Position numbers and translations under genes: made by a program | From: Pelagibacteraceae bacterium AG-359-E06 | Lineage (GTDB): Bacteria; Pseudomonadota; Alphaproteobacteria; Pelagibacterales; Pelagibacteraceae | DNA length: 64,000 nt | NCBI GenBank assembly: GCA_003280495.1 | Contig: QCET01000001.1 | Location: forward strand, 41,301 to 105,300 | Reading direction: 5' to 3' | In this document: positions 29,685 through 34,781 of the stretch, one piece after another | Layout: each line of letters starts with the position of its first letter | Position numbering within the stretch: the stretch's first letter is position 1 | Notes under the pieces: model-generated | Database searches by the model: none | What the model saw: only the letters and a program-made list of their open reading frames with translations | What the model was told of the DNA's origin: nothing

Positions 29685-31802
29685 TTACTTGTTTAATCTA
29701 TTATCAATTAAACTTTGAACAACCGTAGGGTCTGCTAATGTTGATGTATCCCCCAAGTTTCCATAATCATTTTCTGCTACTTTTCTCAAAATTCTTCTCA
29801 TTATTTTACCTGATCTGGTTTTTGGTAGACCAGGAGTGAAATGGATCAAATCTGGTTTTGCGACTGGACCAATCATTTTTCTTACTAATTGAATAAGCTC
29901 TGATTTTAATTCTTCTGTGCCTTCCTCGCCTGCTTTAAGCGTCACATAGCAATACAATCCATTTCCTTTAATTTCATGGGGATATCCGACAACAGCAGCT
30001 TCAGCCACTTTTTTGTGTGCAACGAATGCACTTTCAATTTCTGCAGTGCCAAGATTATGACCTGATACTATTATCACATCGTCCACTCTTCCGGTTATCC
30101 AATAGTATCCATCTTTGTCTCTTCTACATCCATCACCTGTAAAGTATTTCCCGTCGACAGTTGAAAAATACGTATCAATAAATCTTTGATGATCACCGTA
30201 TACTGTTCTCATTTGACCAGGCCATGAGTCAGACATACATAATCTACCTTTGCATGCTCCTTTAAGTTCTTTACCTGACTCATCCACTATTGCGGGTTTA
30301 ATTCCATAAAATGGTTTTGTTGCTGAACCTGGTTTTAAATCTATTGCTCCTGGTTGTGGTGATATTAAAATACCGCCAGTTTCTGTTTGCCACCAAGTAT
30401 CCACGATTGGGCACTTTGAATCCCCAACAATTTTATAATACCATAACCATGCTTCTGGGTTTATAGGTTCACCAACAGTACCTAAAAGTCTTAAAGATTT
30501 TCTATTAGACCTTTTTACTAGTTCATCTCCCTCTCTCATCAATGCTCTTAAAGCAGTAGGCGCAGTATAAAATATATTTATATTATGTTTATCACAGACT
30601 TGCCAAAATCTTCCTGCATCGGGATAAGTTGGTAATCCTTCAAAAACAACTGTTGTAGCACCGTTTGCCAATGGTCCGTAAACAATATAACTATGACCTG
30701 TAACCCAACCTACGTCTGCTGTGCACCAGTAAATGTCGCCCTCTTTATAATTAAAAATATATTCATGAGTCATCGAAGCATAGACTATGTAACCACCACT
30801 CGTATGAAGCACACCTTTAGGTTTTCCTGTTGATCCTGAGGTATAAAGAATAAATAACGGGTCTTCCGCGCCCATTTCTTCTGGTTCGCATTCAGTAGAA
30901 GCGTTTTCAGTAATATCGTGATACCAGACGTCAACATTCTCATTCCATTCAACGTCTGCTCCGGTATGTTTCAACACTACGCATTTTTTAACATCCGGAC
31001 ATTTTGTTAAAGCTTCATTTGTTGTTTGCTTCAATGGTATAGGTTTTGCTCCACGAATTGCTTGATCTGCGGTAATTACATATTCAGATTTACAATCTAG
31101 TATTCTTCCAGCTAAGGACTCAGCTGAGAAACCACCAAATACTACCGAGTGTATTGCGCCAATTCTTGCGCAAGCTAGCATCGAGTAAACTGCTTGTGGC
31201 ACCATTGGCATATAAATTGTTACTCTGTCTCCTTTTTTAATACCGATTTCTTTTAAACCGTTTGCGAGTTTACATACTTCATCTTTTAATTCTTGATATG
31301 TAATATTTTTTGAGACATTTGGATCGTCTCCCTCAAAAATTATAGCGGTATCGTTAGCTTTTTTAGGTAAATGTCTATCAATACAATTGTATGCTACGTT
31401 TAAGGTTCCATCGTAAAACCATTTTATGTCAACTTTTTCTTTACTATAGGTAACATCCTTGATTTGAGAGTAAGGTTTTATCCAATCAATTCTTTTTCCA
31501 TGTTTTTCCCAGAATTTTTCGTTATCTGAAACTGACTCCTCATACATTTTTTTGTAAGAACTTTGGTTTACCAACCCCTTTTTCTTCCATTCGGGAAAAA
31601 CTTTAAATACTGGATCTTTGGCGGTTTTAGGTGTGCTTTTTTTTAAAATTGTCTTCTTTTTCTTTTTGATTTTAACTTTTTTTTTCTTAGCTCTTTTTAA
31701 ATTCTTTTTTACCTTTTTCTTTTTCTTTTTTATTCTTTTCTTTTTAATCTTTTTTAACTTTTTTTTCTTTATCTTAGCTTTTTTCTTTTTTTTCTTTGCC
31801 AT
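29685..31802 (-). CDS. acs: acetyl-CoA synthetase with poly-lysine N-terminal extension
   Basis: [66 protein letters not shown]. First 60 aa contain 38 Lys; SD-like AAGGGGTGA precedes ATG. Confidence 0.96.
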
Positions 31803-31817
31803 CTGTCACCCCTTTAT

Positions 31818-32237
31818 TTAATTCGATATTTTACCCATCTTACAAATTATTTTCCAGCTTTTTGAATCTATTGGCATCACGGATAATCTTGATTGTTTTA
31901 CTAATGAAATGTGAGAAATGGCCTTATTTGATTTAATATTATGTAAAGTTACCGGGCTCTTAAATCTTTTATAAAACCTTAACTGCACTGCAACAAATCT
32001 CTTTTTTTTATCAGTTGGATCTATAAATGACTCTCTAATTACTTTAACAATTCCTACAATTTCTTTGCCAATGTTAGAGTGATAAAAGAAACAGAGGTCA
32101 CCTTTTTTCATTTTTTTTAAATTATTAGATGCTTGATAATTTCTTACACCGTCCCAAGTAGCTCCAGCAAATCCGCTGTTAATTTGTTGGTCAATAGACC
32201 ATACATCAGGTTCAGATTTCACTAACCAGTACTTCAT
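31818..32237 (-). CDS. EVE domain protein
   Basis: MKYWLVKSEPDVWSIDQ, WDGVRNYQASNNLKKMKKGDLCFFYHSN. Confidence 0.93.
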   Translation of the reverse strand: MKYWLVKSEPDVWSIDQQINSGFAGATWDGVRNYQASNNLKKMKKGDLCFFYHSNIGKEIVGIVKVIRESFIDPTDKKKRFVAVQLRFYKRFKSPVTLHNIKSNKAISHISLVKQSRLSVMPIDSKSWKIICKMGKISN

Positions 32238-32404
32238 CTAATTGTTTCTCCAATGTTTACGCCATTTTTGAATCATCGGACTTTCATTTTCCTTGGTTTT
32301 TTTCTAACTCGTACTATGCAACGTGCTATACATTTTAATTTATTAATTATCTATTAAAAGTTTGTAAGTTAGGAAAGTTAATTCTATAACTATTAAAACT
32401 TCGA

Positions 32405-32845
32405 TCATCTATATTTCCAATCATCATACCAGTCTTCCCAACTTTCACCTTCGTACTCTGTATTAAGCTTATCAATCATCTCTTGAGAGTACTGCATAGT
32501 TCCAGGAATATTTTGAGGTATATTTTTCCAAATAGGGTCCTCAATTTTATCTTTATTTTTGTTATCTGAATTTTTTTTCATAAAAAACTTCATATAATTT
32601 AAATATATTTCTTCATGGACATTTTTTGGTTTTGCTGTTTTCCAATTTTTAACTGTTTCAATAAACTGTTTGTGTTTGTCATTTTGAGGAGGTGTTTCAG
32701 AATTAATAAGACTATAATAAAAAGTGAAATGTTTTGTTAACAAATCTATGTGAATTTTTTTCCAACCTGATTTTTCTAACTCTGGGACTTCTTTTAGTAA
32801 TCTTTCTTTGAGTTGTTCTTTTTGATTTTTATTCCCCGATGTCAT
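32405..32845 (-). CDS. hypothetical protein (very weak DUF413/MaoP-like pattern)
   Basis: LLxxxxxxYxxLxxxExPPxxxxHxxFIxxxxxxxxxxPxxxxExxxxxY arrangement; overlaps upstream gene by 4 nt. Confidence 0.55.
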   Translation of the reverse strand: MTSGNKNQKEQLKERLLKEVPELEKSGWKKIHIDLLTKHFTFYYSLINSETPPQNDKHKQFIETVKNWKTAKPKNVHEEIYLNYMKFFMKKNSDNKNKDKIEDPIWKNIPQNIPGTMQYSQEMIDKLNTEYEGESWEDWYDDWKYR

Positions 32846-33507
32846 GAATTATTATTTTTATTTCTAGTTTCTTCGTTTATTTTTTCTTTATAATCTTTTA
32901 TTTTTTGATGTTCAGCTTTTTCAGTTTTATTTTTTTTAAATGCTTTTACACCAAGAAATCCAACAATAGCCCCAACACCCGCTAAAACTATTCCTCCATT
33001 AAGGGCAACACCTATACCAACTATTTTTCCTGCAACACCAAGAGAACCTCCTAATGCAGCTCCAATAGCTCCACCACCTATTGCACCAATTCCTTCTTTA
33101 GTTGCTACTATTCCTGTCGCTTTTCCTACAGGTGATTTTTTTAACTCATAAAGTTTTCGCATAGCTTCTTCTTTTCTAGCTAAAGCTTCTGCTTCTTTTC
33201 TTTGTCTTTCGGCTTTTTCCCTTTCTATTCGTTCTTTTCTTTCTTTTTCAGCGCTAAAGGCAGAAATTATAAAAATAATTAAAATTAAATTTATTATAAT
33301 TGGTCTAACTAAGTTTAAAATTAATCCAATTTTATCACCAGGATATTTAGTTCTAAATTCTAAAAAATTTTCATATTCGTAAGGTATATAAAATGCAGCA
33401 AATATTAATGATATAACAATAAATATAATTGGAACCTTGGGTCCTAGTTTTTCGACTAATTTTCCTATTAGGGTAATTTTTGCAATTTGTCTAATTATCC
33501 AATTCAT
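32842..33507 (-). CDS. membrane protein with charged coiled region and glycine-zipper-like C-terminal hydrophobic segment
   Basis: EKERKERIEREKAERQRKEAEALARKEE then GIGAIGGGAIGAALGGSLGVAGKIVGIGVALNGGIVLAGVGAIVGFLG. Confidence 0.6.
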   Translation of the reverse strand: MNWIIRQIAKITLIGKLVEKLGPKVPIIFIVISLIFAAFYIPYEYENFLEFRTKYPGDKIGLILNLVRPIIINLILIIFIISAFSAEKERKERIEREKAERQRKEAEALARKEEAMRKLYELKKSPVGKATGIVATKEGIGAIGGGAIGAALGGSLGVAGKIVGIGVALNGGIVLAGVGAIVGFLGVKAFKKNKTEKAEHQKIKDYKEKINEETRNKNNNS

Positions 33508-33539
33508 CTGATATTAAAATAAATTTAGCACAAATAATC

Positions 33540-33585
33540 GTACCCCACAATGTAACCCACAATGTACCCCACAATGTACCCCACA
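33540..33585. repeat. Tandem 12-bp direct repeat GTACCCCACAAT (three full units, one partial)
   Basis: gtaccccacaat gtaacccacaat gtaccccacaat gtaccccaca read directly. Confidence 0.95.
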
Positions 33586-33704
33586 TTTGCTTATTATAAT
33601 TAGGTTCAATCAACATTTCTAATTGCAAAGATAAGGTAAAGGTTGGTGGGAGTCAGTGGAGTCTTATCGATGTATCACAAGTGTTGGTTTTAATAACCAA
33701 TATT

Positions 33705-34781
33705 TCATAATTTTAATCCTGGACCTTTCATGAATGGTGCTTTTGGATCGAGTGGCCATCTTGCCGATGACTCAACATTAAAATTACCTTTACTTTTTTT
33801 TTGATAATGTTTTATACCAGCCCATGCAATCATCGCCGCATTATCGGTACATAATTTTGAAGGTGGAAAAATTATAGCAAAACCTTTTGACCTTGATAAT
33901 TTAATTAAATTATTTCTTATTGATTTATTAGATGCAACACCACCTGCAACAACAAAATTTTTATTTTTTAATTTAGGTTGTAAGTCCAAAAACATGTCCA
34001 TTGCCTTTGAACATTTAATTCTTAATATTTCATTAATCGTTTCCTGAAATGATGCTGCCATATCATATTTACATTTATTATTTTTTACATTTTTTATTTG
34101 CAACATGACTGCTGTCTTTAATCCAGCAAAAGATAAATTACATCCAGATTTATGTAAAATTGGTTTTGGCAATAAATATTTTTTTGGATTTCCCTTTAAG
34201 GACATTTTTTCAATTATTTTACCATTAGGAATATTTGCACCAAGCATCTTTGCGACTTTATCAAATGCTTCACCTAAGGCATCATCAATTGTGGTTCCTA
34301 TTCTTTCGTAATTTCCAAATTTATTTACAGATAGAAATTGAGTATGACCTCCAGAAATAAGCAGTAATAAATATGGGTAAGAAATATCATTTGTGATACC
34401 AGCGCTTAACGCATGCCCCTCTAGATGATTAATACCAAAAAAAGGCTTATCTAAAAATCTTGCTATTGTTTTACCAGCAGTCATTCCAACCATCAGACAA
34501 ACTAAAAGCCCTGGACCCGCAGTTGCAGCAACTCCGTCAATGTCCTTAAATGATTTTTTACTTTTATAAATTGCTTGTTTTATAATTATATCTATTTTAT
34601 CAGCATGAGCTTTTGATGCTAGGTCCGGAACTACACCGCCAAATTTTTTATGAATTTTAATTTGGCTAGATACAACGTTGGAAAGAATTTTTGCTTTCCC
34701 CTTACTATCTTGCATAACTACTGATGCTGCAGTTTCATCGCAACTTGTTTCAATACCCAAAAATATTAAATTCTTCTTCAT
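33705..34781 (-). CDS. tsaD: tRNA N6-adenosine threonylcarbamoyltransferase
   Basis: GIETSCDETAASVV, GVAATAGPGLLVCLMVGMTAGKTIA, GVASNKSIR. Confidence 0.98.
   Translation of the reverse strand: MKKNLIFLGIETSCDETAASVVMQDSKGKAKILSNVVSSQIKIHKKFGGVVPDLASKAHADKIDIIIKQAIYKSKKSFKDIDGVAATAGPGLLVCLMVGMTAGKTIARFLDKPFFGINHLEGHALSAGITNDISYPYLLLLISGGHTQFLSVNKFGNYERIGTTIDDALGEAFDKVAKMLGANIPNGKIIEKMSLKGNPKKYLLPKPILHKSGCNLSFAGLKTAVMLQIKNVKNNKCKYDMAASFQETINEILRIKCSKAMDMFLDLQPKLKNKNFVVAGGVASNKSIRNNLIKLSRSKGFAIIFPPSKLCTDNAAMIAWAGIKHYQKKSKGNFNVESSARWPLDPKAPFMKGPGLKL

Follow-up and report, generated by a model that had tools for sequence, protein, structure and literature searches.

A tandem 12-bp repeat array in a Pelagibacteraceae genome as the probable end of an integrase-free integrative cassette of SAR11 bacteria

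We analyzed a 64,000-nucleotide stretch of the genome of Pelagibacteraceae bacterium AG-359-E06 (contig QCET01000001.1; "the window"), in which an array of 12-bp repeats at 33540-33587 lies within a short islet between tsaD and a gene for an EVE-domain protein. The array and the conserved noncoding block beside it very probably form one end of a nonautonomous integrative cassette that has lambda-type att sites and is moved by a tyrosine integrase acting in trans. Few bacterial groups in the ocean are as abundant as SAR11, the order to which this genome belongs, and to our knowledge few prophages or plasmids have been described in it. Genomes of relatives are cited below by G numbers and individual loci by L numbers.

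The array consists of the unit GTACCCCACAAT at 33540, GTAACCCACAAT at 33552, an identical copy of the first unit at 33564, and GTACCCCACATT at 33576. An initial annotation, made from the sequence alone, had described three full units and one partial unit; the array is real, but the fourth unit is in fact of full length with a single change (11/12) and ends at 33587. The same annotation had noted a minus-strand gene (32842-33507) close by, and the array indeed starts 33 bp upstream of it. With a Tandem Repeats Finder score of 85, the array is the best in the window apart from lysine-rich coding repeats at 31656-31797; when the window was shuffled 100 times with dinucleotides preserved, only one shuffle contained an array scoring at least 85. 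A second, diverged pair of units (GTACTATGCAACGTGCTATACATT, 32311-32334), absent from the initial annotation, lies at the opposite end of the islet.

Both ends of the islet recur in other SAR11 genomes. In a first search for relatives with 281 bp around the repeats, positions 33563-33702 gave matches of 85-86% DNA identity in G015, from another genus, and in G046, from another family, and the same-genus G002 matched at the tsaD end only. An exact-pattern scan of 84,980 species returned 26 stretches on SAR11 contigs and one chance match in Leucobacter. The right end (33564-33708 in the window) spans 145 bp and comprises a 12-bp arm pair, ~96 conserved bases, and the core TTGGTTTNNNTAACCA; it is found in more than 25 SAR11 genomes, next to genes that are unrelated, with a mean column identity of 89% across the 145-bp alignment (A2). 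The left end, conserved in the window and in other copies, consists of TAACCAGTACTTCATCTAATTGTTTCTCCA at the EVE start and an arm pair 86-88 bp further in; in the window (32223-32334) it reads as core, 88 bp, and 12-bp arm pair. Its first 30 positions (32223-32252) recur without change in the left ends of G313, G128, G179, G408, and others, and most left ends keep a GGAG motif, here 10 nt upstream of the EVE start. Right ends were matched in 13 and left ends in 20 of 397 SAR11 genomes.

The spacing between these parts is strict, at 120 bp from arm pair to core in nearly all right ends and 86-88 bp from core to left arm pair. When separate models of the two ends were used, most of the re-searched carriers had both ends in the same orientation and 1.5-6.9 kb apart. 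We mapped 25 elements, of 1.5-6.9 kb; G338, with a weak left match, is not counted among them. Right ends elsewhere have at most two arm units, versus four in the window copy. The terminal inverted repeats of transposons and miniature inverted-repeat transposable elements are absent, and the ends are directly oriented with an att core. The block between right arms and core (33588-33683) has one near-match to the integration host factor consensus and a GAGTC motif repeated 9 bp apart; it shows no significant fold (z-score, -0.69). A structured RNA or attC-like hairpin was also considered and rejected, with no significant fold and no Rfam match, as was a tRNA or tmRNA scar, none of which lies near the window locus.

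The insertion point lies in the opening codons of the EVE gene. The initial annotation had proposed comparing the locus with relatives that lack the islet, and same-genus G002 supplies the empty site: its tsaD runs straight into the EVE gene, the tsaD stop overlapping the EVE start, which means that the window carries an insertion between the two. The left neighbor is the EVE gene in 22 of the 25 elements; two others are second copies in tandem, and the last, in G409, adjoins a different gene. The 5' target sequence ATGAARTAYTGGTTA encodes MKYWL, part of the conserved N terminus MKYWL(L/V/M)KSEP of these EVE proteins. The hexamer TAACCA is common to attB, attL, and attR; in the window, the valine codon of the host remains in the EVE gene, and the displaced host start remains on the side of tsaD. 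The crossover falls inside TAACCA. The G409 element (L174) lies just upstream of a proC-like gene at what is a secondary site, and its junctions there confine the exchange to TAA. Among predicted cargo open reading frames of at least 60 amino acids (aa), 70 of 81 are oriented with the tsaD-EVE operon.

More widely, the EVE-tsaD interval is a hypervariable spot in SAR11. Additional left ends occur in such intervals, and no integrase was seen there. As a separate observation, in other SAR11 (L271, L272, L273, and L274) the interval holds surface-sugar-like or TPR genes together with decayed left ends.

Several copies record movement. At least two arrays, those of G420 and G421, are tandem, and their joint has the order arms-120-core-88-arms, the form expected of attP, and in G412 and G414 the right joints continue into left-end-like sequence. 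G313 and G046 belong to different families, and 3,448 bp of their elements align at 99.1% identity; the flanks of the two elements are ~65% identical or cannot be aligned. Elements have thus been transferred between bacterial families, and the element family as a whole has moved recently. The initial annotation had suggested a scar of an integrated element; this is at most partly apt and may fit the window copy, whose ends are mismatched and which may be fused and immobile, as discussed below.

The arm units fall into the classes CCCCAC, CTACAC/CAACAC, CTATGC, and GTGCTATAC, and the arms at the two ends of an element agree. Across the 20 elements whose arm pairs could be read at either end, a set that includes just one of the near-identical elements of G046 and G313, the mean was 3.3 mismatches per 24 positions versus 5.9 in permutations, with a P value of about 1e-5 that is optimistic because the elements are related by descent and hence nonindependent. 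In 16 of the 20, the best or tied-best match of a left end was its own right end.

Lambda-type integrases act on att sites that have two arms with repeats, a core, and, to one side, a long spacer. The suggestion of the initial annotation that the repeats are arm-type sites of a tyrosine-integrase element lacking its integrase is supported by the matching arms at both ends, the strict spacing, and the core, as well as by the empty site of the relative and the tandem attP-like joints. In the mechanism that we propose, attP of the excised circle would comprise at least two 12-bp arm sites, 120 bp, the core, about 88 bp, and a further two 12-bp arm sites. The arms would be bound, as their covariation indirectly suggests, by a tyrosine integrase provided in trans, which would recombine the core with the opening codons of the EVE gene, with strand exchange at the TAA of TAACCA. 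The inserted element would restore the EVE start codons and ribosome-binding site, and its cargo would usually come to lie in line with the tsaD-EVE operon. The likeliest source of such an enzyme would be a phage. We also put forward, tentatively and as a possibility short of even odds, that SAR11 maintains a pool of integrase-free cassettes, many with restriction genes, that share the EVE start as a socket and are moved by tyrosine integrases from outside the elements, probably from phages and with at least three arm specificities, which would amount to integron-like exchange built from lambda-type attP sites.

None of the elements contains a recombinase. The initial annotation was right that the islet has no integrase, and the source genome (79.6% complete) has one PF00589 protein, of 309 aa, Xer-like in size and on a different contig. 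When 32 carrier genomes were searched in six frames for PF00589, most gave one Xer-like protein each, and no hit lay inside an element; for serine recombinases (PF00239), hits occurred in only two carriers, on other contigs and again outside any element.

A number of results weigh against a trans-acting tyrosine integrase or against mobility of the window copy. The search of phage and integrase contexts that the initial annotation had also proposed turned up no helper phage or integrase: exact-pattern scans of IMG/VR for the ends gave only chance or coding matches, and INPHARED and PLSDB held no helper phage, integrase, or plasmid with these ends. Fourteen non-Xer PF00589 loci examined in SAR11 all lack such arms and are not close to EVE or tsaD, and most of these loci hold tRNA genes. 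No excised or circular form of an element was observed. The window copy is the clear outlier in arm agreement (9 mismatches, rank 18 of 20), and with mismatched arms it may be immobile. The CTATGC class is found at its left end and the CCCCAC class at its right end, and its right 855 bp match the G416 element (CCCCAC class) at 92%. The window copy is probably a fusion of two elements that once stood in tandem; tandem neighbors of different classes do occur (G420 and G421), and a deletion between such neighbors would yield a copy of this kind. We also observed ~464-aa phage-type integrases with tRNA-Leu at L150, L152, and L156 in SAR11, where direct repeats of TTGTATCCA with 12-bp spacing lie nearby and are perhaps the own arm sites of those integrases.

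It might be argued that the elements are inert relics like the cis-mobilizable elements (CIMEs), that is, ordinary elements that lost their integrase and move by accident only. The lack of a recombinase in every element agrees with this, as do the mismatched arms of the window copy and the several EVE-tsaD intervals in which left ends are decayed and right ends missing. We nevertheless regard it as unlikely, given that the ends are complete and conserved in about 25 copies with unrelated cargo, that one pair is 99.1% identical across families, that the arm classes covary, and that independent decay would hardly spare the ends yet always delete the integrase. No conjugation or integrase relics and no transfer genes were recognized in the scanned cargo, although no family-level search for transfer genes was made.

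Movement by the host Xer recombinase, as in Xer-using mobile elements, draws support from the finding that in most carriers the sole PF00589 protein is Xer-like. Covarying 12-bp arm pairs flanking a core are, however, a feature of lambda-type integrases foreign to Xer sites, and the core does not look dif-like by eye, which leaves this explanation distinctly improbable. Homologous recombination alone, with the conserved ends serving as homology anchors for cargo swaps at one site, is very doubtful. In its favor, recombination rates in SAR11 are high, and the spot, which lies between host genes, is shared by almost every genome. Against this stand the exact attP-like tandem joints, the exact TAACCA boundary, the second-site insertion in G409, and the transfer into a genome with diverged flanks, which together require site-specific recombination at least once. 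The initial annotation had offered a multisite operator as an alternative; despite the proximity of the repeats to the start of the 221-aa gene, an operator or promoter is hardly credible as their main role, since in other genomes the repeats and block adjoin restriction-modification (R-M) genes and others that are unrelated, and since the opposite end of the elements bears arms to match, though regulation is possible as a side role.

The elements carry diverse cargo. DNA methyltransferase or restriction genes occur in 13 of the 25 elements and include type I, ISP/IIG, AlwI with D12 methylases, C5-methylases, type III-like methylases, GmrSD with HNH, and IIG with an SNF2/PLD helicase; ten proteins were examined with PADLOC and the remainder assigned by Pfam or homology. 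A conserved 111-aa protein (MQLELFDYRRD...) is encoded in nine elements (G408, G415, G221, G419, G422, G424, and G425 [L052, L060, L064, L066, L072, L076, and L077], G412, and G413) and adjoins the right end in eight. All nine hold methyltransferase or restriction cargo, and it is possible that the protein is an R-M accessory or controller. It has no family match above cutoff, and its AlphaFold model is too poor for use (predicted local distance difference test score, 44.5). In four elements (G128, G287, G421a, and G409 [L039, L038, L167, and L174]), the gene nearest the right end encodes a protein of 107-243 aa with a CxxC zinc-ribbon N terminus, and the one tested was NrdR-like by Pfam. The 221-aa cargo gene of the window has a 95% identical stretch in the G416 element. 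Coordinates are collected in Table 1. Beyond the EVE gene, an acetyl-CoA synthetase-like gene (29685-31802) has a lysine-rich N-terminal tail of ~50 residues; comparable tails are present in the Pelagibacteraceae loci examined and absent from G046 (another family).

Table 1. Features of the element and its flanks, in window positions
Feature	Coordinates	Strand	Remarks
Target gene, EVE-domain protein	31818..32237	-	PF01878 (E 5.5e-45); start codons MKYWL element-supplied
attL junction	32209..32252	+	EVE-gene codons, crossover repeat TAACCA (32223-32228), then element left end GTACTTCATCTAATTGTTTCTCCA
Whole integrated element, 1,471 bp	32223..33693	n/a	attL TAACCA to attR TAACCA (33694-33699); both ends matched to other elements
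Probable ribosome-binding site GGAG-AAACAATTAG-ATG	32238..32251	-	Element-supplied, upstream of EVE start; read from sequence, putative function
Left arm pair, 2 x 12 bp	32311..32334	+	CTATGC class; P'-like arm
Cargo gene, 146 aa	32405..32845	-	Weak DUF413 similarity (E 1.2e-4, under curated cutoff)
Cargo gene, 221 aa	32842..33507	-	Membrane and glycine-rich by eye
Right arm array, 4 x 12 bp	33540..33587	+	CCCCAC class
Conserved noncoding block, arm to core	33588..33683	+	Predicted accessory-protein region (putative role)
attR core TTGGTTTTAATAACCAATATTTCAT	33684..33708	+	Right part is displaced original EVE start, overlapping tsaD stop
tsaD, right-flank host gene	33705..34781	-	Stop overlaps original EVE start; identified from sequence alone

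Taken together, these elements bear on how defense genes move among SAR11 cells. The attP/attB pair and the arm classes predict where new genes land and make the search for a helper integrase concrete, and a family without an integrase in any known copy would be an unusual solution for a streamlined genome. We found nothing on this element family or on the EVE target in the open-access literature; an earlier description may exist in subscription papers.

The sites resemble lambda-type attP in that a core lies between two arms, the arm sites are direct repeats, and one of the two spacers is longer. They differ in that they have no known cognate integrase and their arms are predicted binding sites. 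CIMEs are defined as decayed integrative and conjugative or integrative and mobilizable elements and, like the SAR11 elements, have attL/attR flanks, lack integration genes, and form tandem accretions (PMC5704250); unlike CIMEs, the SAR11 elements are a whole family with diverse cargo, intact ends, no integrase, and no recognized conjugation relics. PICMI-type phage satellites and marine VEIMEs/tycheposons are likewise small marine islands with defense cargo and a fixed chromosomal site (PMC10803314, PMC11389934). The integration site of PICMIs is next to fis, and their genes include int, alpA, and one for a primase (PMC10803314); PICI/PICMI satellites encode an integrase, whereas the SAR11 elements have no integrase, alpA, or primase and no fis site. 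Islands at dusA also target the 5' end of a conserved protein gene, with an integrase gene at the site; here the target is instead the EVE-domain gene and the element has no integrase (PMC4482086). Finally, integron cassettes and clusters of attC sites lacking integron-integrases (CALINs) are also integrase-free cargo units with recombination sites, moved in trans and possibly in tandem (PMC11389934). The SAR11 elements differ from them in having a long two-armed attP and no attC-like fold, and by analogy of function we regard CALINs as their nearest counterpart (PMC11389934).
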